Origin: Arenibacter hampyeongensis | Lineage (GTDB): Bacteria; Bacteroidota; Bacteroidia; Flavobacteriales; Flavobacteriaceae | Assembly: GCF_002909255.1 (NCBI RefSeq) | Contig: NZ_PIOB01000004.1 | Coordinates: 248,001-312,000 of the forward strand | Reading direction: 5' to 3' | Length of the DNA: 64,000 nt | Program-made: the position numbers and the translations under genes | Shown here: positions 8,074 to 60,126 of the stretch, one piece after another | Numbering within the stretch: position 1 is the stretch's first letter | Layout of the letters: each line of letters opens with the position of its first letter | The notes under the pieces: generated by a model | Told to the model about the DNA's origin: nothing | The model's database searches: none | The model's input: the letters and a program-made list of their open reading frames with translations, nothing else

Positions 8074-9327
8074 TTAGTTAATTATTTGGTTGTTGGATAC
8101 AATACCGTACACCTTTCCTTTAAGTTTACTCCCTAGAAAACAGCTATTTTTGGAATTGGATAAGATGTCTTGCTCTTCAAAGGTATATTCTGGATTGGGA
8201 TCGAATAGTGTAAGACTGGCATTTTCACCAACTTTAAGGCTTGGTGTTTTAATTTTATATCTTTCTCTACCCTTGGTCAATAGGGAAATGCTGGTTTCAA
8301 GGTCAAAAATCTGATTCAACATACCAAAAGCGCTTTCCAAGCCAATGGTACCATCGGAGGCATTGTCAAATTCCACTCTTTTATGCTCAATATCCATAGG
8401 TCTGTGGTCCGTGGTAACAAAATCTATGGTTCCATCCTTTAGACCTTTGATCAAAGCTTTGGCATCCGTGCTGGTTCTTAGTGGGGGCATCAATTTAAAA
8501 TGGGAATCGAACTCTACCAAAGTGGCATCTGTAAAACATAAATTATGTATTGCCACACTGCAGGTAACATCCAATCCTTTTTTCTTGGCATCCCCTATTA
8601 GCTTTACGGAATTGGCCGTTGAAATAGTAGGGATGTGCATTTTCCCTCCCGTATATTCCAGTATAAAAAGATCTCGGACTATATTAAGTTCTTCGGCCAA
8701 ATTGGGAATTCCTTTTAGGCCTAACCTGGTAGATACTTCACTCTCATTTACAATGCCTTTTCCGGCAATCTGCATATCCATAGGGAAAGAATGAACTAGA
8801 CCATCAAAATTATGGGCATATTGAAGTGCGACTTTTAATAGGTTAGAATTTTTCAGGGGTAATTTATAATCATAATACCCAACCGCACCGGCACTCTTCA
8901 TATCATAAAGTTCCGCCAAACTTTCACCTTCAGATTTTAAGGTCAAGGTACCTAGTGCATGCAGAGAGGTGGCACTTTGTTTTGAAGCATTCTTTAAAAA
9001 AACAATATCAGAGCTGCTATCGGGAAGTGGATTGGAATTGGGATTCAACACAATGTCAGTAAAACCACTCTTTGCCGCAGTGTATAATCCGTTTTCAATG
9101 GTTTCCCTTTCCTCATAGCCCGGTTCTCCAAAACTTACACTGGAATCGAACCATCCAATGGAAACGTGTAAATTATTGAAACTGATCACTTTTGTTTTTG
9201 CCTGAACATCCAAATTGGGGGCAATGTTTTCTATCACCCCATTCTTTATATAAATATCCCGCTTTTTTAAATGTAGATCCTTGTTGGTTGGGTCTACTAT
9301 CTTGGCGGATTTTAAGAGTATGTTCAT
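8074..9327 (-). CDS. Dihydroorotase homologue lacking metal-binding residues (probable pseudoenzyme)
   Basis: This 417-residue amidohydrolase-fold protein clearly resembles dihydroorotase: EPGYEERETIENG (68-80), the NPNSNP turn, MPPLRTSTDAKALIKGLKDG and TTDHRP near 305-310. The metal-binding DxHxH motif is replaced by D61-S62-S63-V64-S65. The usual HHL has become HNL at 261-263, and the APH of the terminal motif is RPM. Only Asp307 of the active site looks preserved. Catalysis is therefore unlikely; non-catalytic dihydroorotase paralogues that scaffold aspartate transcarbamoylase are known in other bacteria. The start is the ATG at 9325-9327, which overlaps the upstream BatA gene's stop as ATGA. 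A longer frame to 9396 would overlap that gene by 73 bp. Confidence 0.88.
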   Translation of the reverse strand: MNILLKSAKIVDPTNKDLHLKKRDIYIKNGVIENIAPNLDVQAKTKVISFNNLHVSIGWFDSSVSFGEPGYEERETIENGLYTAAKSGFTDIVLNPNSNPLPDSSSDIVFLKNASKQSATSLHALGTLTLKSEGESLAELYDMKSAGAVGYYDYKLPLKNSNLLKVALQYAHNFDGLVHSFPMDMQIAGKGIVNESEVSTRLGLKGIPNLAEELNIVRDLFILEYTGGKMHIPTISTANSVKLIGDAKKKGLDVTCSVAIHNLCFTDATLVEFDSHFKLMPPLRTSTDAKALIKGLKDGTIDFVTTDHRPMDIEHKRVEFDNASDGTIGLESAFGMLNQIFDLETSISLLTKGRERYKIKTPSLKVGENASLTLFDPNPEYTFEEQDILSNSKNSCFLGSKLKGKVYGIVSNNQIIN

Positions 9328-11246
9328 TTTAAAAATTTTTGGATAAGAACTTCGGCAAATATAAATGCCATTGCTAAAATAACAAACCATTTCCAAAGCT
9401 CGTTTATGCTATTGTCTTTTTCTATACTTTGAAATAGTGTTGCTGCATTGTCATTAATGCTATAACCTTTTAACTCATTTAAGTTCATATAATAAAGTTG
9501 ACTTTCCACTCTTGGGAAATTAAAACTTATGTTTTTTATGGTCTTTCCTTCGTCCCTAATATGAAAGATTCCTGCGGTTACTGGATAATCATCAAAAGTC
9601 AGGGTTGTTTTATTGGTGAAGGACTGTTGAAAGGGAATAAATTCCTCATTTTCATTGGATACTTTTAAAATCCGATCCTTTGTAAGGTTAACAGGTATAT
9701 CCACTGTGGTTTTGCTACCTATAATTTCGTAAATTCTTGGAATCCGCAGGCTGCCCATACCCATATTGTACAATGTTGGGACTATTAATGGGGAGTTGAT
9801 AAAATTGGAATTGTCTTTGGAAATGGATGCCGTAAACAAATAAGTACCGTCTTCCCCAACCAAAAATGGATCACCACTTTGGTATGAGAGAATTTTAGGC
9901 ATGCCAGATTTAATATTATAAAAAGTATTGACGGAGGGGTACTGGAAATTTGTAACTTCTTTTTCAAACACATTCTTGAACAAGGGATTGGAAAAGGATA
10001 TCTCACTAATTTTTCGTTCCTCTATTACGGAAGTTAGCAATGAGGAATTGGAAAAACTCCCTAGAAATGCATTGTAATTATCCATATCCACTTGGATGCC
10101 TGGAATAACAACCAAATTTCCGCCAGCATTTTTATAGGCTTGCAATGCATTTTGCAAGGCTATTGGAATAGAATTAAGTTCATTGAGGATAATCAAGTTT
10201 TGCGATTCCAATAAGCTGTAGTTCAAAGAATTTACCTTAAAACTGGAATATAGGAATATGTCCTCAGTAAAAATACGCCCCAAGTAATTACCATCGATAT
10301 CGCCAATGGATAGTACTTTAATTTTCTCTTGTTTGTTTATGTTGAAGTAAAGTTGATTGTCATAACTGAGTCCGGAATCGGAGATTAAAATTTTCCCATC
10401 CATAACCTCGCTTGCCGGGATAGTAAAAATGGCCTCGCCTTTTTTGTTTTCATCGAATGTAGCGGATGTTTTTGCAATCAATTTTTCACCATTATATAGG
10501 GAGACCGGGGTATTATCTATTTGGTTATTTGCGGATAATATGGTTTTTAGATCTACGTTTTCCGAAGAAACAGTACTTATATATACGGTGTCTATAGAAA
10601 CGTTTACCAACTTCTCTGGTAATGATTGCACCAAATGTCTATTTATATTTGGCAATGAGTCATTGGTCGTGGAATAGATGCTTTTTTGAAAATCAGAAAT
10701 TAAGACCAGGTCGTTACGAGTGGTTTCACTGTTCGTGAACAAAGTCCTGGCCTTTAAATAGATTTCTTCCAGCTGTAATTGGTTGCTGGAATAGGGAAGG
10801 GAAAGCAAATTGTTCTTTATATCGGCAATCCGCACTTCCCTGTATATTATATTATTGGTAAAAAGGCTAAAGTTATTTTCTTCGGGAACTGATTTTAAAA
10901 TCTCCTGAACCATATTTTCCAATAAAGTACCTGTTCCCGTATTGATTTGCATGCTCAGGGAATTATCGAGATAAATTACTGTTTCGTTGCTTTTTAGTGC
11001 GGATTTACCGGGAATAAAGGGTTGGGTAAAGGCTGTAATTAGGGCGCTAAGGATTAAAAGGCGGGTACACAATAGGAGCCATTTTTTAAGGGTATTGCTC
11101 TTTCTTGATTCTGCAACTACTTTTTTTAGGATTTTGACATTCGTAAATGGGGTCTTCTTAAATCTGCGAAGTTGAAAAAGGTGGATCAATATAGGAATAA
11201 GTAGAAGAAAAAAGGCCCAAAGGAGTTCCGGATGTTTAAACAGCAT
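9324..11246 (-). CDS. BatA-domain / von Willebrand A-like double-membrane protein
   Basis: This 640-residue protein begins with the aerotolerance-regulator (BatA) N-terminal domain: helix 1 at about 8-26 (LLWAFFLLLIPILIHLF), a basic loop RRFKKTPFTNVKILKKV and helix 2 at about 57-77. A vWA-like domain follows, with the metal-site motif YLDNSLSMQ (DxSxS) near residue 92. The long periplasmic C-terminal part ends in a last helix (about 620-636). It is translationally coupled to the dihydroorotase-like gene. Bat proteins are tied to envelope integrity, but the exact role is unknown. Confidence 0.88.
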   Translation of the reverse strand: MLFKHPELLWAFFLLLIPILIHLFQLRRFKKTPFTNVKILKKVVAESRKSNTLKKWLLLCTRLLILSALITAFTQPFIPGKSALKSNETVIYLDNSLSMQINTGTGTLLENMVQEILKSVPEENNFSLFTNNIIYREVRIADIKNNLLSLPYSSNQLQLEEIYLKARTLFTNSETTRNDLVLISDFQKSIYSTTNDSLPNINRHLVQSLPEKLVNVSIDTVYISTVSSENVDLKTILSANNQIDNTPVSLYNGEKLIAKTSATFDENKKGEAIFTIPASEVMDGKILISDSGLSYDNQLYFNINKQEKIKVLSIGDIDGNYLGRIFTEDIFLYSSFKVNSLNYSLLESQNLIILNELNSIPIALQNALQAYKNAGGNLVVIPGIQVDMDNYNAFLGSFSNSSLLTSVIEERKISEISFSNPLFKNVFEKEVTNFQYPSVNTFYNIKSGMPKILSYQSGDPFLVGEDGTYLFTASISKDNSNFINSPLIVPTLYNMGMGSLRIPRIYEIIGSKTTVDIPVNLTKDRILKVSNENEEFIPFQQSFTNKTTLTFDDYPVTAGIFHIRDEGKTIKNISFNFPRVESQLYYMNLNELKGYSINDNAATLFQSIEKDNSINELWKWFVILAMAFIFAEVLIQKFLK

Positions 11247-11376
11247 TCCTAAATTTAATTTTTCAAATATAAGAAAAGAATTGCGAGGCCGTCTTAATTT
11301 TAATGTTGATATATAGACTAATTCTACATCCGATTAAAATAAATTTAATATATACGTATGCACATAAATAAAGGGG

Positions 11377-12384
11377 TCAACAAAAAAAGAAATAATCATG
11401 AGCCGGATTTTTTCCTTTGGCCGATAAATATTCCCTTATAAACTCTTGGGCTTCCTTATTTGCTACCGTAATTATTATTAGAGCGTCCTCATGCTTGTCT
11501 ATTTCTATATAGTGGGCCATTTTTTTATTGTAAATATCCAAACCAATTTTATTGGAGTTGTTACATACCCAGGTAAAAACTATATTCTGTTCAATGAGAT
11601 TTTTGGCCAATTTTTTTCCCTTGTTCCCTGCACCCCATAATACAAGGGGTCGTTGTTTTTCATAGTCAAGTTTTAGAAAATAATGGAGTTTAATATCCAA
11701 GAAATAATTTTGGGCATAATGTTCACTGGTTCTAGAAGTTCTATAGCTATAATCTCGCCAATGGTGTAGTACTTCATTACTGGGAATACATTTTAGCCCC
11801 TGCTCATAAAAACGAAAAGCAAGATCGTAATCTTCGGGATAACGATTGGATAAAAATGACCCAACCCTATCCAAGTCCCTTCTGTTCACCATCCAACATG
11901 GTGAGGGAATAACGCATTCCTTATAGATTTCGGAATAATTCTTCCCTTGTTCCGTTAATCGGTTTAACCACTTTTCGTAGCCTTTATAACCCCCGCCAAC
12001 ACCGTCTTTGGAAAAATATTTTACCTTTCCAAGAGCCACATGTCCTTCTCCGTGAATAACCAGGGCATTCACCATAGTTTCCAGTTTGTTTTTGGACATT
12101 AAGTCATCGGAATCCATTCTGGTTATAAAAGAGCCCTTAGATTGGGAATAGGCTGTTCTTAAAGCCTCTATAATTCCCCTGCCCTCATTTTTCAGAACTT
12201 TAATTCTGGAATCCATCTTGGCGTAGTGATGCATAATTTCTAGGCTTTGGTCCGTGGAATAATCATTGACCGCCAGAATTTCCCAGTCGTCATAAGTTTG
12301 GTCTATGATAGACTGTATACACACCGGTAAAAATTCCTCGGTGTCTTTAAAAGGGATAAGAATACTGATAGTTCTCATGTTCAT
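11377..12384 (-). CDS. Family 2 glycosyltransferase with C-terminal nucleotide-binding-like domain
   Basis: Residues 1-215 form a GT-A glycosyltransferase 2 domain: SILIPFKDTEEFLPVCIQSI, the VNDYSTDQS acidic loop and the metal-binding DxD-type motif RMDSDDLMS. Residues from about 245 form a second domain beginning LVLWGAGNKGKKLAKNL, a Gly-rich Rossmann-like loop also seen in sugar-modifying enzymes. The protein is cytosolic with no membrane segment. The acceptor is unknown, probably a surface glycan. A second ATG lies at codon 3 (12378). The gene sits alone, with 107 bp separating it from the GH20 gene. Confidence 0.88.
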   Translation of the reverse strand: MNMRTISILIPFKDTEEFLPVCIQSIIDQTYDDWEILAVNDYSTDQSLEIMHHYAKMDSRIKVLKNEGRGIIEALRTAYSQSKGSFITRMDSDDLMSKNKLETMVNALVIHGEGHVALGKVKYFSKDGVGGGYKGYEKWLNRLTEQGKNYSEIYKECVIPSPCWMVNRRDLDRVGSFLSNRYPEDYDLAFRFYEQGLKCIPSNEVLHHWRDYSYRTSRTSEHYAQNYFLDIKLHYFLKLDYEKQRPLVLWGAGNKGKKLAKNLIEQNIVFTWVCNNSNKIGLDIYNKKMAHYIEIDKHEDALIIITVANKEAQEFIREYLSAKGKNPAHDYFFFC

Positions 12385-12491
12385 CCGCCTAAAATAGAAA
12401 TTTATCTCGCAAAAATCGCATCTAGGACGTTGACCTTGGAAGCAGAATTGTTGTTGTTACCCTTATATTCAAAGATGCGTATCCATATAAT

Positions 12492-13592
12492 CTAATTTGA
12501 ATTTTGACTCGTTGTCTCCAATTCATTTATGGCGGCCAACATTGCCTTAAAGCAGGCTTCTTGGGTAGTGGGATTTATTTCCTTTACTTTTTGGGAGTGG
12601 TAGTTTTTTATAAATTCGCTGGCAGAAGACCAAACCGTATGCATAATGCCCAAAAAGTGCTCCTTCATTTCCGGGGTGGCATTTTCTTTAAAATTATACA
12701 TCATTTTAACCTGTTCTTTGGCAACTTCCGGTTTTCTCCAGGGGCAGGCAATAACATCAAATCCTTTTAGGGCAAACATGGCAGGTGTTGGTATGGCCTT
12801 TTCGTAATGCCAATCACATATTACCACAGATTTATCAATAAGGTCTACGGCCCGTGCGGTATTGTTCATGCTGGCTTCCCACATCCCGATTCCAGAGGTA
12901 GAGGCATCTATTAATCGATCGCCCCAAATCCAAAGGCGTTTGTTGCTGTCAGCCAAATGCCGACTTATTTTATTTACCTCATTGGCAAACAAGGTTGCTG
13001 GATCTTTTCCTTGGCAACGTGGGCATTTTTCATCGGCTATGTAAAATACTTCATCCATTCCTGCATGAAAGGCAGTGGCCTCAAAAACGGCAATAATTTC
13101 ATCCACTAAGTCGAACACCACATTATGTACCTCAGGATGTAAGGGACAGTAGCTTTTGCAATAAAGGCCGTCCGGATTTGGCCATTCGTATTTTTCAGGA
13201 ATTATAACGTGCGGCGTTTCATCAAATTGGGGATATACGTCCAGAAGTTTATTGGTTTTTTCTGCCCAGCTTTGGTGTCCCAATAAATTTACTTGTGGTA
13301 TTAGATTTATTTGGTGTTTTTTGGCAACCGCTACCAATTGCTTTATTTGGGCTTCTGACAAGGGATTTTGCCCTCTTAATTCTGGTCTTGATTTATAGGC
13401 ATAATTAAAATCTACCCTAAGTACCAGAGTGTTAATGCCATTGGGACCTAATTCCTCATCAATAAATTTAACAAACTCGGCCACACCACTGGCATTGGGA
13501 GCTGCTATACAGAGTCCCTTAACATCAAAAATGCTCTGTGCATTACAGACTAAGGAGGCTAGGCCTAGCACCATGAGAAGTAACTTGCGCAT
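12492..13592 (-). CDS. Secreted glycoside hydrolase family 20-like protein
   Basis: This 366-residue protein has a signal peptide (MRKLLLMVLGLASLVCNAQS, cut near 19). It is a TIM-barrel with the GH20 signature H176-A-G178-M-D180-E181, the substrate-assisted Asp-Glu pair of beta-N-acetylhexosaminidases, followed by a CPRC-containing loop (190-193). It lacks the usual GH20b N-terminal domain and is shorter than classical hexosaminidases. Its start is 16 bp after the SGNH-hydrolase stop, so the two are probably cotranscribed for glycan or amino-sugar degradation. Confidence 0.8.
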   Translation of the reverse strand: MRKLLLMVLGLASLVCNAQSIFDVKGLCIAAPNASGVAEFVKFIDEELGPNGINTLVLRVDFNYAYKSRPELRGQNPLSEAQIKQLVAVAKKHQINLIPQVNLLGHQSWAEKTNKLLDVYPQFDETPHVIIPEKYEWPNPDGLYCKSYCPLHPEVHNVVFDLVDEIIAVFEATAFHAGMDEVFYIADEKCPRCQGKDPATLFANEVNKISRHLADSNKRLWIWGDRLIDASTSGIGMWEASMNNTARAVDLIDKSVVICDWHYEKAIPTPAMFALKGFDVIACPWRKPEVAKEQVKMMYNFKENATPEMKEHFLGIMHTVWSSASEFIKNYHSQKVKEINPTTQEACFKAMLAAINELETTSQNSN

Positions 13593-13608
13593 AGTATTAA
13601 GGTTTAAG

Positions 13609-14301
13609 TTAATTTTGTAGCAGGGCCTTATTTATTGCAGCCTCGACCAATGGTTCCATTACGGCATACCCGGCTGTCGTAGGATGAACTTCATCCGATG
13701 CATATTTTTTGGGTAGTCCGTTCCGGTCATCTACCATAACCGTGAAATAATCTAGATAAATATGGCTATTTTTTTCGGAATAGTCTTTTAACAAGCTGTT
13801 TAAGGCCGGTATTTTTTCATTGGGTTGTAATCCTGGTTTCCAAGGGTAATCAAATGCAGGGAGGACGGAGGAGATAATAACTTTAATTCCATTGGCTTTC
13901 GCCAGTTCTGCCATCGATTTAATATTGTCCACTATCATTTTCAAGCTGGAAGGCCCGGTATTTCCTGCAATGTCGTTGGTTCCCGCTAAAATCACCACTA
14001 CTTTGGGTTTTAGGTCTATTACATCCTGTCTAAAGCGCAAGAGCATTTGGGGCGTTGTCTGTCCGCTAATACCGCGGTTGACATAGGGTTTGTCCCTGAA
14101 GAATTCCGGTCTCTTATTTATCCAACCAATGGTAATGGAATTGCCCATGAATACAACGCGATTTTCATCAGCTTTGGGCGGCCCTATTATCTTATTGTCT
14201 TCGGAGAAGTGATCCAGATTTGGCCAATCTTGCGAAAAACTAGTATTTATGGTAAAAATGGTCAGTACAAAGAGGGCAATGGATAGCTTCATGGTTTTCA
14301 T
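13609..14301 (-). CDS. Secreted SGNH/GDSL hydrolase (acylhydrolase)
   Basis: This 230-residue protein has a signal peptide (hydrophobic 5-20, cut after SFSQ). Block I is FMGNSITIGW with nucleophile Ser55, block II has Gly80, block III is GTND with Asn109, and block V is DEVHP with Asp203 and His206. All catalytic elements are present. It is probably an acetyl-ester hydrolase acting on polysaccharide or peptidoglycan fragments, a fit with the GH20-like gene directly downstream. An alternative start at codon 4 (14292) would also leave a signal peptide. Confidence 0.9.
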   Translation of the reverse strand: MKTMKLSIALFVLTIFTINTSFSQDWPNLDHFSEDNKIIGPPKADENRVVFMGNSITIGWINKRPEFFRDKPYVNRGISGQTTPQMLLRFRQDVIDLKPKVVVILAGTNDIAGNTGPSSLKMIVDNIKSMAELAKANGIKVIISSVLPAFDYPWKPGLQPNEKIPALNSLLKDYSEKNSHIYLDYFTVMVDDRNGLPKKYASDEVHPTTAGYAVMEPLVEAAINKALLQN

Positions 14302-14343
14302 AATTGTAAAAATGGTTAAAAATGATTATTACTTGGACTAGTC

Positions 14344-16041
14344 TTAAATTTTCATTGATTTTTTTTCATTTGTAATCAATCGTGCTTTTCTCTGTTTTAT
14401 TTTTTGTTGAATATCTGATGGATAGGCTGAATCGTTTTCAGCCTCAAAGATTCTTATATTCTGTAATTTATCTGGTTTTATCAAATCCTGCTGCTTACAG
14501 TTTAGGATGGTAGCCGCAGTCTGAACACCTGAATAACTGGCACCTGCCACTCCATGCGATTGTATGCTTGCCCCACACATATATAAATTTTCAATTTCAC
14601 TCTTTGCTCTAAATGCAAAAGGGCCTATCTGCCTAAAAGTCTTTTCTGTACCATAAACACTTCCATTGGTGGAATTTATATAATATTTGTTTGTTATGGG
14701 CGTCCCCAATTCTTTATTTATAATATTATCCCTTATTCCAGGTATTGCCAGTTCCAAGGTATTGATCATTTTATTGGTCAATAATTCTTTGAATTCCATG
14801 TACTCCTTAGATCGCTGTTCATTCTCCTTATTGAACTGGGCGAAAGAATCTGGGTTAATGTAAGTAATAACTTCAAGGGAGTGGTGCTTGCCGTCATAGC
14901 TTGTGGGGTCTTTGAGAGTGGTACAGCTAATGAATATACCGGGAAATACTTCGCCGCTGGTTATATCCTTATCTGTCATCTCCTCATAAATCTTATCCAT
15001 GTCTTTGTTATCCATCATCCATATATTTCCTGAGTCCATTCCCAATTTCCGAACATCTATATCAACTGTTAGAAAAAGCATTAGGGAACTACAAGAGTAC
15101 TTTGTTCTACCCAGTTTTTTGCGAAGCTTGGCACTGAGGTTTTGTTCTTTTACTAAGTTTAAATAGGTAACTCCTGGGTCGGCATTGGAAATGATCCTTG
15201 AAGCGTAGATTTTCTCACCATTTTCCAGTTCCACTCCAATGGCTTTCTTTCTCTTGTCCCCTTCCAAAATAATGCTTTTTACTGTTGTGCTTGTGCGTAT
15301 TGTTCCACCATTCCTCTGTACGGCCTTGGTCATCGACTTTACAATGGCGGCTCCACCGCCCATGGGGTAGTATCCTCCGCTAAAATAATGGTCCATAACG
15401 GCACAGTGCAAGGGGAAACTAGCCTTGGCAGGGGCCAAACCGTGATCGCCCCATTGAATATTGAGCACTTTCTGCAGAAGGGGATCTTTAATATGCCAAT
15501 TAATGACTCGCTTTAGGCTGAACAAAGCAAATTTACCCATATGCTTGGTTCTAAAAGGGATGGTAATATTGTCCCAAAAACCGCTCATCTTCGGAATCAA
15601 CTGAATTTGCCTAGAAACATTCCTGACCAACTTTAAATAGTGGTTTAAACGTTTTTTTTCCTTAGGAAACCTATGTCCTAGGGAAGCGTTTAAATCATCG
15701 AAATTTCCAGGAAGATCAATTCTTTCCTCTCCAATAAAACAATGCTCATAACCCTCTGGATTCATTCTAAAAAAAACCAAATCATCGGCCAATCCCAAAC
15801 CTTCATAGAGGGTCCTGGTCGATTCGCCTTCCCCTAACAAGCCAATATAGTGCACTCCAGGAGAAAAACGGTGCCCATTCAGGTAAAAGCTATGGCACCA
15901 GCCACCTGGAACATCATGTTGTTCCAAAACCAAAACCCGTTGTCCTGCTTTGGATAGACAAATGGCGGCCGACAATCCCCCTGCACCCGAACCAATAATG
16001 ATGGTATCTATATCTTGTAGTCGTTTTTTTTTGATATCCAT
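14344..16041 (-). CDS. FAD-dependent oxidoreductase, carotenoid desaturase/isomerase-like
   Basis: From the ATG at 16039-16041 the protein has 565 residues. It shows the FAD-binding GxGxxG near its start (IIIGSGAGGLSAAICLSKAG), the phytoene-desaturase style LEQHDVPGGWCHSF and a C-terminal segment MCGASIQSHGVAGASYSGVQTA. Relatives include CrtISO/retinol-saturase-type proteins and bacterial CrtI homologues. No other carotenoid gene is nearby, so the substrate is open. The longer frame to 16089 adds an unconvincing N-terminal stretch; the chosen start places the dinucleotide fold about 13 residues in. Confidence 0.85.
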   Translation of the reverse strand: MDIKKKRLQDIDTIIIGSGAGGLSAAICLSKAGQRVLVLEQHDVPGGWCHSFYLNGHRFSPGVHYIGLLGEGESTRTLYEGLGLADDLVFFRMNPEGYEHCFIGEERIDLPGNFDDLNASLGHRFPKEKKRLNHYLKLVRNVSRQIQLIPKMSGFWDNITIPFRTKHMGKFALFSLKRVINWHIKDPLLQKVLNIQWGDHGLAPAKASFPLHCAVMDHYFSGGYYPMGGGAAIVKSMTKAVQRNGGTIRTSTTVKSIILEGDKRKKAIGVELENGEKIYASRIISNADPGVTYLNLVKEQNLSAKLRKKLGRTKYSCSSLMLFLTVDIDVRKLGMDSGNIWMMDNKDMDKIYEEMTDKDITSGEVFPGIFISCTTLKDPTSYDGKHHSLEVITYINPDSFAQFNKENEQRSKEYMEFKELLTNKMINTLELAIPGIRDNIINKELGTPITNKYYINSTNGSVYGTEKTFRQIGPFAFRAKSEIENLYMCGASIQSHGVAGASYSGVQTAATILNCKQQDLIKPDKLQNIRIFEAENDSAYPSDIQQKIKQRKARLITNEKKSMKI

Positions 16042-53199: not shown

Positions 53200-53895
53200 A
53201 TGAAAAAGATAATAGTAAGTGGATTGTCCATAATGTTGATATTAGTTACATTCAGTAGCTGTCAAGCGGTTAAGAACACCAACCATAAGCAAAGAGGGGC
53301 AGCGACAGGTGCCGCCGGTGGCGCAGTTATAGGTGGTGTTTTAGGAAATAATGTAGGAAAGGGAGGTAATACAGCCTTAGGCGCCATAATCGGCGCTGTG
53401 GTAGGTGGTGTTGCCGGTGGTTATATAGGCGACAGAATGGACCGCCAGGCAGAACGTATTGAAGAAGAGATTCCAGGGGCCGAGGTTACTAGAGTAGGTG
53501 AAGGAATTAATGTAACTTTTAATGAGGATGCCGGTGTTTATTTTGACACCAACAAATCCGATGTTAAAGGTACATCCGCAACAACATTGGACCGAATGGT
53601 AGGTATTTTAAAAGAATATCCTGATACCAATATTTTAGTTGAAGGTCATACCGATAGTGCGGGATCAGATGAATACAATCTAAATTTATCAAAGCAACGG
53701 GCACAGTCAGTTACAAATTACCTAACAGGCAACGGAATCTCCAAAAATAGATTAACCACAGCTTGGTATGGTGAGGCACAGCCTAAAGCTGATAACAGCA
53801 CCGCCGCTGGAAAAGCTAAAAACCGTAGAGTAGAACTAGTTATTGTAGCCAATGAGGCCTTGCAAAAAGAGGCGCTTATGAAAGCCAAACAATAA
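53200..53895 (+). CDS. OmpA-family lipoprotein with glycine zipper
   Basis: This 231-residue protein has a lipobox VTFSSC (Cys21) followed by a Gly-zipper membrane or oligomerisation segment at about 33-80 (GAAGGAVIGGVLGNNVGKGG). The OmpA C-terminal peptidoglycan-binding domain lies at about 110-220 (VYFDTNKSDVKG, VEGHTDSAGSDEYNLNLSKQ, AKNRRVEL). It tethers the outer membrane to the wall. Close matches are YiaD-like proteins. A terminator follows directly. Confidence 0.93.
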   Translation: MKKIIVSGLSIMLILVTFSSCQAVKNTNHKQRGAATGAAGGAVIGGVLGNNVGKGGNTALGAIIGAVVGGVAGGYIGDRMDRQAERIEEEIPGAEVTRVGEGINVTFNEDAGVYFDTNKSDVKGTSATTLDRMVGILKEYPDTNILVEGHTDSAGSDEYNLNLSKQRAQSVTNYLTGNGISKNRLTTAWYGEAQPKADNSTAAGKAKNRRVELVIVANEALQKEALMKAKQ

Positions 53896-53915
53896 AACAG
53901 CTTACACCTTATATA

Positions 53916-53943
53916 AAACCCGGCGATATTCGTCGGGTTTTTT
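53916..53943 (+). terminator. Terminator after the OmpA lipoprotein
   Basis: AAACCCGGCGA pairs with the CGTCGGGTTT side (53931-53940), followed by TTTTG. It separates the lipoprotein from the biosynthetic cluster. Confidence 0.75.
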
Positions 53944-53967: not shown

Positions 53968-55092
53968 ATGGATTCTTTTGATATCATAATTGTTGGAGGG
54001 GGTCTGGCGGGATTAACGGCTGCCATACATTTAAAACTAAAAAATTATAAAGTTGCTGTTTTTGAAGCTAGGCAATATCCCCATCACAAAGTTTGTGGAG
54101 AGTATATTTCAAACGAAGTGTTACCATATATGGAATTCTTAGGGGTTTCATTGCCTCGAACTGTTCAGATCAATGAAATGTTGTTTAGTACCGTAAATGG
54201 CAAAACTTTAAAGGCCCAGTTGCCATTGGGGGGCTTTGGTCTAAGCAGGTATACTTTTGATTACCTATTATATAGGAGGGCAATTGCCTTGGGGGTACTG
54301 GTTATTCAGGAAAATGCAACCTCTGTAGGATTTGAAAGCGACAATTTTAGCGTTTTGACAGAGTCGGGCACGGAATATACCAGCAAATTTGTCATTGGCG
54401 CTTATGGTAAAAGAGGGATGTTGGATAAGGAATTGCAGCGCGAATTTATTCAGAAAAAATCACCTTGGTTGGGGATAAAGGCTCATTATAAGTTGGATTC
54501 CTTTCCAAATAATCTAGTGGCAATCCATAATTTTAGGGGCGGTTACGGTGGTCTGTCCAAGACGGAGAGCGGGGCCGTTAATTTTTGTTATCTGGTTTCC
54601 TATGAAAGCTTTAAAAAAGAGAAGGATGTTGATTGTTTTAATAAGAATGTTATAGCCAAGAATCCCTATTTAAATTTATTCCTAAATAATGCTGAGATGC
54701 TATTTGCCCAACCACAGGCCATTGGCCAGATTTCATTTTATAAAAAGAAACCTGTGGAAAAACATATCCTTATGTGTGGGGATACCGCTGGCCTAATACA
54801 CCCCTTATGCGGAAATGGCATGGCCATGGCGATTCATGGTGCTAAAATTGCCTCGGAATCCATTCACGATTATATTAAGAATAATTCTGTTGATCGTCAT
54901 AAATTGGAAAGGGACTATGAAAGACAATGGAAGCAAATGTTTTCCAGGAGACTCTGGATGGGCAGGCAGCTTCAAAGTGCCTTGCTGAACGAAAAAATCT
55001 CAAATATGGCCATGGGTATATTGGCTAAATCTCCATACTTGGTGAATAAGCTTATTAAGAGCACACATGGACAAATAATTGAAGGTCAATGA
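53968..55092 (+). CDS. FAD-dependent oxidoreductase (geranylgeranyl reductase/phenol hydroxylase-like), cluster gene 1
   Basis: This 374-residue flavoprotein has the dinucleotide fold DIIIVGGGLAGLTAAIHLKL, the KVCGEYIS motif after the ARQYPHH loop and a GDTAGLIHPLCGNGMAMAIH segment near 275, the group 3 FAD signature. It is most similar to GGR/FixC-like oxidoreductases and aromatic hydroxylases. As first gene of a type III polyketide synthase cluster it could hydroxylate or reduce the product, as SrsC-type monooxygenases do in phenolic-lipid pathways. Its stop overlaps the methyltransferase start as ATGA. Confidence 0.85.
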   Translation: MDSFDIIIVGGGLAGLTAAIHLKLKNYKVAVFEARQYPHHKVCGEYISNEVLPYMEFLGVSLPRTVQINEMLFSTVNGKTLKAQLPLGGFGLSRYTFDYLLYRRAIALGVLVIQENATSVGFESDNFSVLTESGTEYTSKFVIGAYGKRGMLDKELQREFIQKKSPWLGIKAHYKLDSFPNNLVAIHNFRGGYGGLSKTESGAVNFCYLVSYESFKKEKDVDCFNKNVIAKNPYLNLFLNNAEMLFAQPQAIGQISFYKKKPVEKHILMCGDTAGLIHPLCGNGMAMAIHGAKIASESIHDYIKNNSVDRHKLERDYERQWKQMFSRRLWMGRQLQSALLNEKISNMAMGILAKSPYLVNKLIKSTHGQIIEGQ

Positions 55093-55814
55093 ATTTTTCG
55101 AACCGTAGTTCCGAGAGGGAGCTAATGGATGATTCCAATTTAGATGCACTTCTATTGCAGGAAGTTTATGCTGACATAAATAAGGTCAATGAAGTTTTGC
55201 AAGGGTTTTTCCATTCCTTGAGAGCTATGGAAAGAATCATTACAGAAAACCCCCAAAATTCCTATACCATTTTGGATATGGGCTGTGGGGATGGGGCCAT
55301 GTTGAGAAAAGTTGCTTCTTATTTTAAGGGCAGATCCTTTGAGTTAACTCTAATTGGGATCGATTTAAATGCAAGGTCCGTTCAATTGGCTAAGGAAAAT
55401 TCCAAGGAGTATCCTAATATAAGATTCTTCGAACAGGATATTCTGGCGTTGGAAGCCAACAAATTGCAATGTGATATTCTTCTTTGCACCTTGACCATGC
55501 ATCATTTTGATACCGACGCCATACCAACTTTTCTCAATCAATTTGTAAAACTTAGCAGATTGGGAGTCGTTATAAATGATTTGCAAAGAAGTAGAATGTC
55601 CTATTATCTTTATAAACTCTTTAGCCTTATTTTTATGAAGACAAAGATTGCGAAGCATGATGGTTTGGTTTCCATACAAAGCGCATTTACGAAGACAGAC
55701 TTAATTGCTTTCTCCAATAATCTGCCCAATTTGGAACATCATATAAGTTGGAGATGGGCGTTTCGGTATCTGTGGATAATACGAAATAGGAAAAAAGATA
55801 TACCATATGAGTGA
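55089..55814 (+). CDS. Class I SAM-dependent methyltransferase, cluster gene 2
   Basis: This 241-residue protein has motif I ILDMGCGDGAMLRKVASYF (about 58-76), the Asp after strand 2 in LIGIDLNARS and motif IV DILLCTLTMHHFD. It resembles UbiE/Coq5-type methyltransferases. Overlaps of 4 bp with the flavoprotein gene and 8 bp with the polyketide synthase gene indicate translational coupling. The expected substrate is the phenolic or pyrone product of the cluster. Confidence 0.88.
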   Translation: MNFSNRSSERELMDDSNLDALLLQEVYADINKVNEVLQGFFHSLRAMERIITENPQNSYTILDMGCGDGAMLRKVASYFKGRSFELTLIGIDLNARSVQLAKENSKEYPNIRFFEQDILALEANKLQCDILLCTLTMHHFDTDAIPTFLNQFVKLSRLGVVINDLQRSRMSYYLYKLFSLIFMKTKIAKHDGLVSIQSAFTKTDLIAFSNNLPNLEHHISWRWAFRYLWIIRNRKKDIPYE

Positions 55815-56862
55815 GACCAGGATAGTTGCGGTTACCAAAGCATTGCCAGCATACTACAGAAACACAAAGGATATTATACCTTTTGTGGAAGAATGGATGA
55901 AGGGACAGGATACACGGTTTCAGAGGAAAGTTATTAAAATTTTTGAAGGGGCAGCGGTAGATAAACGATACAGTATTATGAGCCCTGAAGAGGTTTTTGG
56001 TGCCACTTCTTTTGAAGATAAGAATAACGTTTATATCCGTGAGGTAAAGAAACTGGGAAGGAAGGTTTTGGAACAGGCCTTGGCCAAGAGCGGTTGGGAT
56101 CCGGACAGTCTAGACTATATAATAACAGTTAGTTGTACAGGAATCATGATTCCTTCCTTGGATGCATATCTTATAAATGATTTGGATCTTAGAAAAGATA
56201 TTGTTCGTTTGCCCGTTACGGAGATGGGTTGCGCAGCTGGAGTGTCAGGTTTAATTTACGCTAGCAATTTTTTAAAATCCAATCCTGGAAAAAGAGCGGC
56301 CATAGTGGCTGTGGAAAGTCCCACTGCCACATTTCAGCTCAATGATTATTCTATGGCGAATGTGGTAAGTGCCGCAATATTTGGTGACGGAGCCGCATGT
56401 GTATTGGTTTCCTCTGAAAAAGATGCTTCTGGCCCTAGAATAGTTGGTGAAGAAATGTACCATTTTACAGACGCTACACATTTAATGGGTTTTGATTTGA
56501 CCAATTCTGGACTAAAAATGATTTTAGACCCCATGGTACCACAGGTTATTTCTGAACATTTCCAGGCTATAATACATCCTTTTTTGGAGCGCAATGGTAG
56601 TTCTATTGAAAAAGTGGACCATTTAATATTTCACCCTGGGGGAAAGAAAATTGTGGAGACAGTGGAAAGCCTCTTTGGTAAGTTGGGCAAGGATTTGGAC
56701 GATACCCGGGAAACACTCAGATTGTATGGTAATATGAGCAGCGCAACAGTACTTTATGTTTTGGAGCGCTTTATGGACAAGGAAATCCCGAAGGGGGAGC
56801 AAGGTTTATTGCTAAGTTTTGGCCCTGGATTCTCTGCACAACGGATATTGCTGGAATGGTGA
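55807..56862 (+). CDS. Type III polyketide synthase (chalcone synthase-like), cluster gene 3
   Basis: This 351-residue homodimeric ketosynthase has the catalytic triad Cys142 in TEMGCAAGVSGL, His276 in IFHPGGKKIVE and Asn309 in LYGNMSSATV, all present. The C-terminal FGPGFSAQRILLEW matches the family's GFGPG loop. It condenses a starter acyl group with malonyl-CoA to pyrone or resorcinol products. The adjacent acyl-carrier and ketosynthase genes point to a long or modified fatty starter, the alkylresorcinol/pyrone type. Final product and regiochemistry are not inferable. Confidence 0.93.
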   Translation: MSETRIVAVTKALPAYYRNTKDIIPFVEEWMKGQDTRFQRKVIKIFEGAAVDKRYSIMSPEEVFGATSFEDKNNVYIREVKKLGRKVLEQALAKSGWDPDSLDYIITVSCTGIMIPSLDAYLINDLDLRKDIVRLPVTEMGCAAGVSGLIYASNFLKSNPGKRAAIVAVESPTATFQLNDYSMANVVSAAIFGDGAACVLVSSEKDASGPRIVGEEMYHFTDATHLMGFDLTNSGLKMILDPMVPQVISEHFQAIIHPFLERNGSSIEKVDHLIFHPGGKKIVETVESLFGKLGKDLDDTRETLRLYGNMSSATVLYVLERFMDKEIPKGEQGLLLSFGPGFSAQRILLEW

Positions 56863-56945
56863 TTTAAGCTTGGAACAAGAGGTTTTCAATATTTGTGATA
56901 TTAAAGTCAATTATTAAAGTATTAGTTTAAATAAATACAACTTAT

Positions 56946-57395
56946 ATGCTAACTGTTAATGAAATACCTAATAGATTACCATATACCAAACCTTTTCTAT
57001 TTGTGGATAAAATTCAATTGGTAACAGAGAGCACAATTGAAGGTTGTTACACTTTTAAAAAGGATGAGTTTTTTTATGAGGGACATTTTAGAGAGCGTGC
57101 CGTTACACCAGGAGTGATTCTGACCGAATGTTGTGCGCAGATCGGATTGGTATGTTTGGGGATATTCTTATTGTACGGTAAAGAGGAAACTTTCGGGAAT
57201 TTTCAAGTAGTTTTAAGTAGTTCCGAAATGCAATTTTTATTACCGGTTTATCCATTGGAGACAGTAACAGTAAAATCGAGTAAGGTTTATTTTAGATTTA
57301 ATAAATTGAAATGTGAAGTGAAAATGTACAATCAACAGGCTCAGGTGGTGTGTAAGGGTGTATTGTCAGGGATGTTAAGGAATGGTGATATATGA
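56946..57395 (+). CDS. 3-hydroxyacyl-ACP dehydratase-like hotdog protein, cluster gene 4
   Basis: This 149-residue FabZ/FabA-like protein has the catalytic His47 in EGHFRERAVTPGV and Glu61 in LTECCAQ. The family's hydrophobic tunnel helix follows. It is preceded by an 83-bp gap, the only sizeable one in the cluster. Its stop overlaps the ketosynthase start as ATGA. It probably dehydrates beta-hydroxyacyl intermediates on the cluster's own ACP. Confidence 0.85.
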   Translation: MLTVNEIPNRLPYTKPFLFVDKIQLVTESTIEGCYTFKKDEFFYEGHFRERAVTPGVILTECCAQIGLVCLGIFLLYGKEETFGNFQVVLSSSEMQFLLPVYPLETVTVKSSKVYFRFNKLKCEVKMYNQQAQVVCKGVLSGMLRNGDI

Positions 57396-58669
57396 ACAAG
57401 CGTGTAGTGGTAACCGGACTTGGAATATGTGCTCCCAATGGAGTTGGCCTTTCCAATTTTTATGAAGCCCTACTTAGTGGAGCCAGTGGAATTACATTTC
57501 ATCAGGAGTTGGCGGACTTGGGCTTCGGGTGTCAAATCGCCGGAAAACCCGAAATAGCGGAAAGCTTAAAAGAAGCCTATTTTACACCTTTACAACTTAA
57601 AGGCTTAAATTCAAGTGGTGTGGTTTATGGAGTCATGGCCGGAACAGATGCTTGGACAGATGCTGGTTTGGGAAAGGCAGGTAAGGATAAACCCGATTGG
57701 GACAGTGGTATCATATTTGGCACTGGTATTTTGGGTATAGACAAACTTAGGGAGTCTATATATTTAATAGATGATAATAACTCCAGGCGCTTGGGCAGTA
57801 ATTCCGTTATGCAGACCATGGCCAGTGGAATAAGCGCTTATCTAGGTGGGATTTTGGGATGTGGCAATCAAGTGACCACAAATTCATCGGCCTGTGCTAC
57901 CGGTACAGAGGGAATAATTATGGGGCTGGAACGTATTAGATTGGGAAAGGCCAAGAGGATGTTGGTTGGAAGTTGTAATGACAGCGGCCCATATGTTTGG
58001 GGTGGCTTTGATGCCATGCGTATCCTACCTGCCAACTATAATACTAATCCCCGGGATGCCAGCAGGCCAATGAGTGCCAGTGCTTCGGGATTTGTCCCGG
58101 GAAGTGGGGCAGGAGCATTGGTGTTGGAATCCTTGGAGAGTGCTTTGGAGAGGGGAGCCAGGATTTATGCAGAAGTTATGGGAGGTGCTGTAAACAGCGG
58201 CGGACAACGTGGAGCAGGGAGTATGACTGCCCCCAATAGTGAGGCGGTGCAACGCTGTATTTTAGATGCATTGTCCGATGCCGGAATAGAGAGATCAGAG
58301 GTGGATGCTATTAATGGCCATTTAACTGCAACATCAAAGGATGCCGAAGAAATTAGGAATTGGAGTGAAGCTTTGGAGCGTTCTGGCAAGGATTTCCCTT
58401 ATATAAATTCCACTAAGGGCATGGTAGGTCACTGCCTGGCTGCTGCGGGCAGCGTGGAATGCGTGGCCGCCCTATTGCAATACCGTGAGGGTTTGATCTT
58501 TGGTAATCGAAACTGTCGAGACATACATCCCGAAATTTTGGAATTCGTGGATGCTTCCCGAATTCCTCAAAATACGATTTCCCATAGGTCAAAAATAATG
58601 GCAAAGGCAAGTTTTGGGTTTGGAGATGTAAATGCCTGTATTATCTTTAAAGAATTTAAAGAGATGTAA
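57392..58669 (+). CDS. Beta-ketoacyl-ACP synthase (FabF-like), cluster gene 5
   Basis: This 425-residue KAS-type enzyme has Cys168 in TTNSSACATGTEGI and the second catalytic residues His310 in INGHLTATS and Lys342/His347 in STKGMVGHCLAAAGS. The His310 motif departs from the usual HGTST of housekeeping FabF, marking a specialised clade. It is presumably dedicated to elongating the starter on the ACP two bases downstream. No FabG-type reductase is in the cluster, so reductive steps are borrowed or absent. Confidence 0.88.
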   Translation: MNKRVVVTGLGICAPNGVGLSNFYEALLSGASGITFHQELADLGFGCQIAGKPEIAESLKEAYFTPLQLKGLNSSGVVYGVMAGTDAWTDAGLGKAGKDKPDWDSGIIFGTGILGIDKLRESIYLIDDNNSRRLGSNSVMQTMASGISAYLGGILGCGNQVTTNSSACATGTEGIIMGLERIRLGKAKRMLVGSCNDSGPYVWGGFDAMRILPANYNTNPRDASRPMSASASGFVPGSGAGALVLESLESALERGARIYAEVMGGAVNSGGQRGAGSMTAPNSEAVQRCILDALSDAGIERSEVDAINGHLTATSKDAEEIRNWSEALERSGKDFPYINSTKGMVGHCLAAAGSVECVAALLQYREGLIFGNRNCRDIHPEILEFVDASRIPQNTISHRSKIMAKASFGFGDVNACIIFKEFKEM

Positions 58670-58671
58670 TT

Positions 58672-58932
58672 ATGGTTGATAATGAGGAGCGTTTAGCCAG
58701 ACTGAAGGAAATAGTTAAGACGTATCTACCTGAAGATGTTCCAATTGGTAATGTAGAGCTGGAAAGCAATTTTGTGACTGAGCTAAACATCAATTCCGCC
58801 CACCTGGTAGATATTATATTAGACCTAGAAGATGCTTTTGGTATCCGACTGGAGAATGATGACATGGATAAAATGCAGACAGTAAGGGATGCTTTAAATA
58901 TTATAGACCAAAAACTATTGGATAAAGAATAA
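58672..58932 (+). CDS. Acyl carrier protein, cluster gene 6
   Basis: This 86-residue acidic protein has the phosphopantetheine site at Ser42 in LNINSAHLVDIILDLEDAFG (the Asp of the usual DSL is Asn here). Four-helix ACP size and charge are normal. It starts 2 bp after the ketosynthase stop. Its stop codon abuts the stop of the convergent terC gene, so no room is left for a terminator. Confidence 0.88.
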   Translation: MVDNEERLARLKEIVKTYLPEDVPIGNVELESNFVTELNINSAHLVDIILDLEDAFGIRLENDDMDKMQTVRDALNIIDQKLLDKE

Positions 58933-59886
58933 TTAGTTTTCCTCAGATGCCTTGACTTCCTGAATAAGCAGAGAAGTAATTACGCCTGCTATCAAGGATA
59001 CAGATATTACCGTTAAGGAAACCCACTCAGGGATTTCGATATGATGGGAAAATAGCATTTTTAAACCAACAAATGCTAGTATTACCACTAGGCTGTAATT
59101 TATATATCTGAACTTTTCCAGCATTCTGGAAATTAAGAAGTACATGGATCTTAATCCCAGTATAGCTAAAATATTGGAGCTAAAAACAATAAAAGGGTCC
59201 GCCGTAATAGCCAAAATTGCGGGAATACTGTCCAATGCAAACAAAACGTCCGTTAATTCTATGATTACCAGGGCTACAAAAAGTGGTGTGGCGGCAGTGA
59301 CCCCCATACGCTTCACAAAGAAATCATGGCCATTTAAGGTTGTTGTGATGGGGTATATCTTTTTTAACCTCTTGAATACGAAAGAGTTCTTTGGATCAAA
59401 TTTACTTTCGTCCGATCTTAACATTTTAAAGGCAGTATACAACAGGAAAACACCAAAAACATAAATCACCCATTCGAATTTCGTAATAAGGGCAACGCCG
59501 AATACTATCATTAAGGCCCTAAATACAATGGCACCCAAAATACCCCAGAACAATACCCTATGTTGATAAATGGGCGGAATTTTAAAGGCACCGAAAATTA
59601 CAGCAATTACAAAGACGTTGTCTATACTCAGGGACAATTCTATGAGATAACCGGTTATATATTTTAAAACTGCATTATTGGGCGTTAATCCAGTGGGGTT
59701 ATCTATAAGGCCGTTGGAGAATAACCAATAAATTACACCACTAAAACTGAAGGCAACAGTGACCCAGATGGCGGTCCATATGCCAGCTTCCTTGGTTTTA
59801 ATAACATGCTCGTGTTTATGAAAAACTCCTAGATCAAGGGCTAAAAATATAATAATCAGAAAAATAAAGGATCCCCAAATTAACAT
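58933..59886 (-). CDS. TerC/Alx-family integral membrane protein
   Basis: From the ATG at 59884-59886 the protein has 317 residues. About eight membrane helices are visible and the family's conserved acidic membrane motif is ELSLSIDNVFVIAVIF (about 83-98), with a second ELTDVLFALDSIPA near 200. The family is associated with tellurite/Mn homeostasis and metalation of exported proteins. The eight-residue extension to 59910 is not needed. It is convergent with the biosynthetic cluster and functionally unrelated as far as can be seen. Confidence 0.9.
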   Translation of the reverse strand: MLIWGSFIFLIIIFLALDLGVFHKHEHVIKTKEAGIWTAIWVTVAFSFSGVIYWLFSNGLIDNPTGLTPNNAVLKYITGYLIELSLSIDNVFVIAVIFGAFKIPPIYQHRVLFWGILGAIVFRALMIVFGVALITKFEWVIYVFGVFLLYTAFKMLRSDESKFDPKNSFVFKRLKKIYPITTTLNGHDFFVKRMGVTAATPLFVALVIIELTDVLFALDSIPAILAITADPFIVFSSNILAILGLRSMYFLISRMLEKFRYINYSLVVILAFVGLKMLFSHHIEIPEWVSLTVISVSLIAGVITSLLIQEVKASEEN

Positions 59887-60126
59887 AGTCAATATGATTT
59901 TAAGGCACAAATGTAAGTATCATTTTTAAATACTAATGGGAACTAAACCAATCTTTTTTACATGATTATGACCGCCTTGTTTTCTGACTTGGGGGCGCTG
60001 TAAATGAGAGAATTATGAAAATAATCGGCAGGATGTTTAAAAACTCGATATACGGTAGGTAAAAACTGAATTGAGGGTCTGGTTTGGTGAAAAATTGTTA
60101 TAATTTAGAGGAGACTTTATTTGAAA

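Follow-up and report, generated by a model that had tools for sequence, protein, structure and literature searches.

The locus

The DNA considered here (the window) is a stretch of 64,000 nucleotides from Arenibacter hampyeongensis (contig NZ_PIOB01000004.1, positions 248,001 to 312,000). Within it, six open reading frames (ORFs), identified from an ORF list together with Pfam and NCBIfam models, run co-directionally on the plus strand from 53968 to 58932. They form one block that encodes a type III polyketide synthase (PKS) with two putative tailoring enzymes and, after these, a dehydratase, a ketosynthase (KS) and an acyl carrier protein (ACP). The proteins are single enzymes of 86-425 aa, and all six genes are present at the place and on the strand given by a first-pass annotation made from the sequence alone. 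The features of the locus are as follows.

53915-53941, plus strand: terminator-like hairpin, a 12-pair stem followed by a T run (consensus match only)
53968-55092, plus strand: FAD-dependent oxidoreductase, Pfam FAD_binding_3, with a group-A monooxygenase/halogenase fold
55089-55814, plus strand: class I S-adenosylmethionine (SAM)-dependent methyltransferase, Pfam Methyltransf_25 (NCBIfam PRK06202 at 145.8 bits, short of its cutoff of 243)
55807-56862, plus strand: type III PKS with Cys142/His276/Asn309, PF00195 and PF02797 above cutoff
56863-56945, plus strand: 83-bp gap at the PKS-hotdog junction, the site of a FabL-like reductase gene in 67/80 named relatives
56946-57395, plus strand: FabZ-like hotdog 3-hydroxyacyl-ACP dehydratase, His47/Glu61, PF07977
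57392-58669, plus strand: FabF-like KS with Cys168/His310/His347 and the motifs GHLTATS and FGFGDVN, PF00109 and PF02801
58672-58932, plus strand: ACP, predicted phosphopantetheine site Ser42, PF00550

The junctions are, in order, an ATGA overlap, an 8-bp overlap, the 83-bp gap, a second ATGA overlap and a 2-bp gap. The earlier description of all junctions as ATGA or 2-8 bp thus fits four of the five and fails at the PKS-hotdog junction.

Conservation and linkage of the block

Gene order at this locus is conserved. At the 80 named loci compared here, the most similar of 589 confirmed contig matches, the order FAD enzyme, methyltransferase, PKS, (reductase), hotdog dehydratase, KS was found in 80/80, with PKS, methyltransferase and FAD enzyme adjacent on the same strand as in the window; the ACP follows in 75, and the remaining five contigs stop inside the KS. 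We take the genera of these loci to be Flavobacteriaceae, the label carried by the 24 that were placed in the tree. Among the matches listed, the closest named relative is Arenibacter arenosicollis (L035), whose PKS is 92% identical, and dN/dS against it is 0.063-0.155 across the six genes. Because these ratios are low (0.06-0.16), the block appears to be maintained and not a chance assembly.

The linkage was also examined in two overlapping draws, of 295 genomes from the class and 395 from the phylum, in which the PKS subfamily was defined by at least 51% identity and the KS was counted at E <= 1e-80. All 16 genomes with the PKS subfamily in the class draw carry the KS, as against 5/279 of the others and 1/60 of those having only a distant type III PKS; in the phylum draw the corresponding figures are 33/33, 5/362 and 5/139. 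In the union of the draws, the KS lies 448-1530 bp downstream of the PKS, on the same contig and strand, in 39/39 PKS-bearing genomes. The first-pass annotation had held that its proposal would fail if dehydratase, KS and ACP were not conserved beside the PKS; the KS is so conserved in all 39 genomes, and dehydratase and KS together at all 80 named loci. A further draw among relatives, which covered the PKS search only, found the subfamily in 17/17 other genomes of the genus, 8/19 of the family and 0/23 from the rest of the order; the remaining matches listed are FabH-like at 34% identity or less.

There are also signs that the block has been transferred in one piece from family to family. Relative to the genome of the window, PKS identity is 69-73% in four same-family genomes outside the genus and 78% in a fifth (G018); among nine PKS-bearing genomes of other families it is 64-71% in five and 51-53% in four, the latter all of one family (f43). 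Control FabF identity is 75-84% in those four same-family genomes, 93% in G018 and 64-72% in all nine genomes of other families. Since PKS identity falls less across families than FabF identity does, transfer of the block is suggested for the five genomes at 64-71%. In a PKS tree, the KS-linked clade (40 rows) is set apart from 14 distant sequences with support of 100/99, although branches are long, with a long-branch warning for the distant rows; the PKSs of the four f43 genomes fall inside this clade (93/83). At L184 and L185 (G163, G086), about 2 kb separate the block from the best match to FabF in the same genome, which is 68-69% identical to the FabF of the window's own genome.

With linkage in 39/39 genomes, low dN/dS and signs of block transfer, chance neighbourhood was rejected: the KS, dehydratase and ACP set is not incidental to the PKS.

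An OmpA-like glycine-zipper lipoprotein gene (53200-53895, NF053611 above cutoff) precedes the block, the hairpin lying between them, and is found within 600 bp upstream of it in 70/80 named relatives. On the 3' side lies a TerC gene (58933-59910) on the opposite strand, convergent with the block and found at 45/80 named loci.

The polyketide synthase and its tailoring partners

The type III PKS assignment holds for both domains, with the N- and C-terminal Chal_sti_synt models scoring 79.8 and 73.6 bits against cutoffs of 27, and the triad C142/H276/N309, correctly placed by the first-pass annotation, is invariant in 96/96 aligned rows. Identification as DpgA was rejected (NF042429, 183.6 bits against a cutoff of 425). 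By fold, the predicted PKS model is closest to PKS11 and to the resorcinol-forming CylI, which are tied. Phe229 aligns with a Trp of PKS11; the matching residues of the Azotobacter enzymes are presumably Trp281 in ArsB and Gly284 in ArsC. Because the ArsB/ArsC positions are provisional and PKS11 makes pyrones, a one-residue call between resorcinol and pyrone was not used.

The FAD protein is likely a ring hydroxylase, to judge from its model (pLDDT 85.2). Its nearest folds are PltA, FasV and ChlB4, so that halogenases head the fold list, in which the absence of a family does not exclude it. A halogenase was nonetheless rejected: WxWxI(P) is a motif of flavin-dependent halogenases, and it is absent here. 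A geranylgeranyl reductase was likewise rejected (TIGR02032, 105.6 bits against a cutoff of 158.8).

A distinct ketosynthase subfamily

The KS is not a housekeeping FabF, a candidate rejected at 259.5 bits against the TIGR03150 cutoff of 493.75, and its subfamily has motifs of its own, GHLTAT and FGFGDVN. In an alignment of 101 rows (91 PKS-linked, the other 10 coming from loci that lack the PKS or, in the case of L192, are cut by a contig end), Cys168, His310 and His347 are invariant, as are G309, T312, T314, G411, D412 and N414, while position 313 is A in 93 rows, S in 7 and G in 1. The catalytic His and Glu of the dehydratase are intact in 105/105 rows and the ACP Ser in 99/99. Seven other KS-like loci occur in the window's own genome: three read HGTST/FGFGGHN, HTTST/FGFGGHN and HATST/FGFGGTN, three have HGTAT and do not fit the second pattern, and the last fits neither. 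The departures from housekeeping forms reported by the first-pass annotation, GHLTATS in the KS and NS at the ACP site, are therefore real, and they are best read as marks of a subfamily and not as decay, because they are kept across the subfamily and the KS paralogs lack the KS motifs. Several further ketosynthase-like genes are clustered elsewhere in this genome (G000:C12:516076-544156; L194, L195) and are perhaps of flexirubin or aryl-polyene type.

These observations bear on the simplest alternative, namely that the last three genes serve ordinary fatty acid synthesis and have remained beside the PKS by inheritance alone. The genes are indeed FabF-, FabZ- and ACP-like, and vertical inheritance within the genus would keep neighbours together, but a FabF-like gene with the usual motifs is present elsewhere in the genome, the KS motifs differ from those of that gene, and the pairing of PKS and KS spans several families with signs of block transfer. 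This alternative is very improbable and can be regarded as largely excluded.

The reductase gap and the phosphopantetheinyl transferase

In 67/80 named loci, a short-chain dehydrogenase/reductase (SDR) gene occupies the position of the 83-bp gap. Its best NCBIfam model is FabL NF005975 (157.5 bits in L041 and 141.4 in L061, both below the cutoff of 328), the solved structure that matches it best is that of an enoyl-ACP reductase, and a Tyr and a Lys seven positions apart are invariant in 83/83 rows; from these sequence matches, this FabL-like enzyme likely performs enoyl reduction. The gene is missing from the window, from nine named Arenibacter loci and from L053, L055, L058 and L112. At L112, a 16-codon tail of the reductase is left in the same PKS-hotdog gap, which is direct evidence for loss of the reductase at that locus. 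No such remnant was found in the window's own gap, L112 alone keeping one (a match at L070 is weak, E 0.06). Relocation within the genome was rejected, as the best match to the FabL-like reductase elsewhere in it is just 27% identical; loss or replacement is indicated instead. At L093 (Salinimicrobium nanhaiense), a second SDR gene (11970-12752) stands between the genes for the FabL-like reductase and the dehydratase; its best matches, below cutoff, are to general SDR and FabG models, and it could encode a ketoreductase.

Some relatives also carry a phosphopantetheinyl transferase (PPTase). A purpose-built profile matches the gene after the ACP in 16/80 loci, all from Gramella, Christiangramia, Gillisia or Salinimicrobium, and Pfam places a PPTase at six PKS loci of other genomes (L173, L175, L178, L179, L182 and L183), with L186 tested and found to be without. 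The same profile finds none in the window, and the single PF01648 (PPTase-family) match of the window's own genome is on another contig.

The module away from the polyketide synthase

The KS and its companions also occur apart from the PKS. Two draws were added: the order of G698 supplied 248 genomes, and the class of G450 another 244. In the first, 18 genomes carry the KS, eight of them beside FAD, methyltransferase and PKS genes, two cut by contig ends and eight without; in the second there are four, all without a PKS beside the KS. Together with the class and phylum draws above, 66 genomes bear the KS: 47 have the PKS nearby, three are undecidable at contig ends (G225, G817, G841) and 16, with 17 loci, are without it.

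At 11 of these 17 PKS-free loci, a neighbour predicted to consume acyl chains was recognised. For example, DarB and DarH adjoin the module at L228 (NCBIfam above cutoff) and at L191 (75% and 70% identical). At L193 (G064:C84, 734-5588), ACP, FabZ-like, FabH-like, KS, FabL-like reductase and FeeM-family N-acyl synthase genes form one run, which may be a cluster for an N-acyl amino acid lipid that shares this chain module; FeeM is ACP-dependent (PMC10404671). A GNAT protein of 378-416 aa stands beside the module at four loci of family f98 (L229, L230, L231, L250), three of them with a GT2 glycosyltransferase, and a glyco-aminolipid is a possible product there. An MBOAT acyltransferase is found beside it at L247-L249 (G704, G723, G745), by Pfam in L247 and by 97% and 54% identity in L248 and L249; at L247 a GT4 glycosyltransferase and a weak match to DUF1574 lie nearby, and O-acylation from a private acyl-ACP is possible at these loci. 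Finally, at L246 (G893, 8133-14815), KS, ACP and a PPTase-like gene lie immediately upstream of a nonribosomal peptide synthetase (NRPS) with two condensation stretches, an arrangement that suggests lipopeptide initiation from a private ACP. The DarB/DarH, GNAT, MBOAT and NRPS partners may likewise take acyl chains from the module's ACP. Queries for MBOAT, DarB, DarH, GNAT, GT2 and FeeM found no match at any of 103 PKS loci.

Because close relatives of the module adjoin other predicted lipid-building enzymes in other bacteria, the chain-making genes likely form an exchangeable chain-supply unit. Whether the KS, FabZ-like, FabL-like, ACP and PPTase genes constitute an exchangeable acyl-ACP cartridge of Bacteroidota that serves at least six head-group chemistries, with the type III PKS as its commonest and directly loaded partner, seems to us evenly poised. 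The six chemistries counted are those of the type III PKS, DarB/DarH, the FeeM-type N-acyl synthase, GNAT with glycosyltransferase, MBOAT and the NRPS condensation domain.

A proposed route and its alternatives

The first-pass annotation saw in the last three genes a dedicated acyl-ACP line, a suggestion strengthened by the relatives' FabL-like reductase, by the PPTase of some and by the finding of the module next to other enzymes predicted to transfer acyl groups. We consider it probable that the six-gene block comprises a private acyl-ACP line that loads the type III PKS directly and yields what is likely a methylated alkylresorcinol-type lipid. From what is observed, namely which genes are present and in what order, their catalytic residues, their strict co-occurrence and the return of the module beside other partners, we infer both the loading from the ACP and the product, which may be an alkylresorcinol or a pyrone. 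In this scheme, the holo-ACP would be charged and the chain extended by the KS. Reduction of the 3-keto group might be borrowed from the housekeeping FabG, a step proposed because the block is without a ketoreductase, and the FabZ-like enzyme would then dehydrate the 3-hydroxyacyl chain on the ACP. In most relatives, enoyl reduction would fall to the FabL-like enzyme of the cluster; in the window's own genome it would have to be supplied by another gene, or else be omitted, so that the chain stays unsaturated. The acyl-ACP, or a 3-ketoacyl-ACP straight from the KS, would be passed to Cys142 of the PKS for malonyl additions and cyclisation, and the methyltransferase and the monooxygenase-fold flavoprotein would decorate the ring.

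Several observations weigh against this scheme. The six-gene block holds neither a ketoreductase nor an enoyl reductase of its own, and it also lacks the neighbouring FabL-like reductase and PPTase genes that relatives carry. "FabL-like" itself denotes the best model below its cutoff, so that the relatives' enzyme could instead be a ketoreductase. By sequence, the closest solved structure to the PKS is PKS11, an alkylpyrone synthase, which makes a pyrone product possible. The Fisher values for the PKS-KS pairing are tiny but treat genomes as independent, ignoring relatedness. Of the 98 PKS loci scanned whose KS is complete, only L239 and L093 have extra genes of at least 120 aa between PKS and KS, and at L239 (G856, from the order draw) the KS lies 5395 bp from the PKS with three other genes between. 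In a quick KS tree, the KSs of the f43 genomes group weakly (SH-aLRT 84) with PKS-free KSs, and this discord with the PKS tree may point to exchange of partners in place of one fixed pair. The five KS-only genomes of the phylum draw (G172, G698, G386, G410, G450) all carry a distant type III PKS elsewhere, which the module may serve in trans. Finally, no acyl consumer was recognised among the scanned neighbours at 6/17 PKS-free loci (L188, L189, L190, L241, L244, L245), L190 being classed solely from the similarity of its gene layout to that of L188. There is an AMP-binding enzyme at L245 and, next to the dehydratase, an aminotransferase at L241.

The lack of a ketoreductase in particular would be accounted for if the KS passed a 3-ketoacyl-ACP straight to the PKS, which would then add fewer malonyl units. 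CylI, one of the top structural matches, has been crystallised with a 3-ketoacyl-SNAC substrate, according to PDB entry titles, and a further SDR that might be a ketoreductase stands between PKS and KS at only one of the 98 loci, L093. Retention of the dehydratase, together with the FabL-like reductase in most relatives, is useful only if 3-keto groups are reduced, and we regard this variant as rather improbable.

A second variant, which we hold to be unlikely, is that the module builds a second acyl chain of its own, such as one to be esterified to the ring afterwards, and that the PKS uses ordinary acyl-CoA or housekeeping acyl-ACP. In its favour, flexirubins join an aryl-polyene acid to a dialkylresorcinol (PMC3992019). 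Alkylresorcinols were also formed by planctomycetal type III PKSs in a host supplied with no such module, and an acyl-CoA route was proposed for them (PMC10896814). Against this stand the six-gene block, which holds no other candidate acyltransferase, and the 103 PKS loci, where queries for DarH, FeeM, GNAT and MBOAT found no match, the other genes there being only partly scanned.

Should the chain prove to be built on the private carrier, the cluster would set the chain length, and the product could escape feeding studies that rely on free fatty acids or CoA esters. If the module does swap partners, it would be a ready-made part for lipid engineering, and GHLTAT with FGFGDVN would be a marker for finding unknown lipid pathways.

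Comparison with known systems

The first-pass annotation likened the first three genes to the PKS, methyltransferase and hydroxylase sets of phenolic lipid synthesis, naming SrsABC, an operon of the same type. The likeness holds: hierridin-type (HidABC) and planctomycetal alkylresorcinol operons also unite a type III PKS, a methyltransferase and a FAD enzyme (PMC8086630, PMC10896814), and the planctomycetal PKSs formed alkylresorcinols in a heterologous host (PMC10896814). Unlike the block, these operons are given no dedicated KS, dehydratase or ACP in the available text of the two reports, and none is seen near three distant Bacteroidota PKS trios (L200-L202).

Loading of type III PKSs from an ACP has precedents in GCS, SCO7671 and ArsB/ArsC (PMC6274091). 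In the Azotobacter ars system, a dedicated fatty acid synthase (FAS), ArsA, hands acyl groups from its ACP directly to the type III PKSs ArsB and ArsC (PMC6274091), the kind of route proposed here. The ars system uses a type I FAS, whereas the block has discrete type II proteins, no ketoreductase and no multidomain FAS. In cylindrocyclophane synthesis, the type III PKS CylI (PMC8086630; PDB 8yst), one of the two closest fold matches to the PKS of the block, acts after carrier-bound chains and forms a resorcinol. There the chain begins on a stand-alone ACP, and an AMP-binding enzyme, a halogenase and a type I PKS take part (PMC8086630); the block has none of these.

Dialkylresorcinol (Dar) clusters, whose DarB/DarH adjoin the KS module at L228 and L191, represent another route to resorcinols, and the dar cluster of Azoarcus includes a KS and an ACP (PMC3949708). 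DarB is KAS III-like and not a type III PKS, and DarB and DarH are unmatched at the 103 PKS loci. Housekeeping type II FabF, FabZ and ACP share families and catalytic residues with the set in the block; its KS differs from housekeeping FabF by falling below the FabF model cutoff, by other active-site motifs and by fixed linkage to the PKS.

The first-pass annotation had predicted a membrane phenolic or pyrone lipid, new to this group. Type III PKS clusters as such are commonly reported in Flavobacteriaceae (PMC10734526, PMC7440613, PMC9323603), making up 10.74% of biosynthetic clusters in one survey (PMC10734526), and to this extent the prediction needs qualifying; no product is named in the available text of these surveys. 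A literature search limited to titles and abstract openings, with most subscription journals outside its scope, found no description of a type III PKS with such a feeder module. Both type III PKS clusters of Flavobacteriaceae and type III PKSs loaded from an ACP are already known. New, within the scope of that search, are the discrete and likely exchangeable feeder module, the strict tie between it and one PKS subfamily, and its reappearance next to other enzymes predicted to transfer acyl groups.

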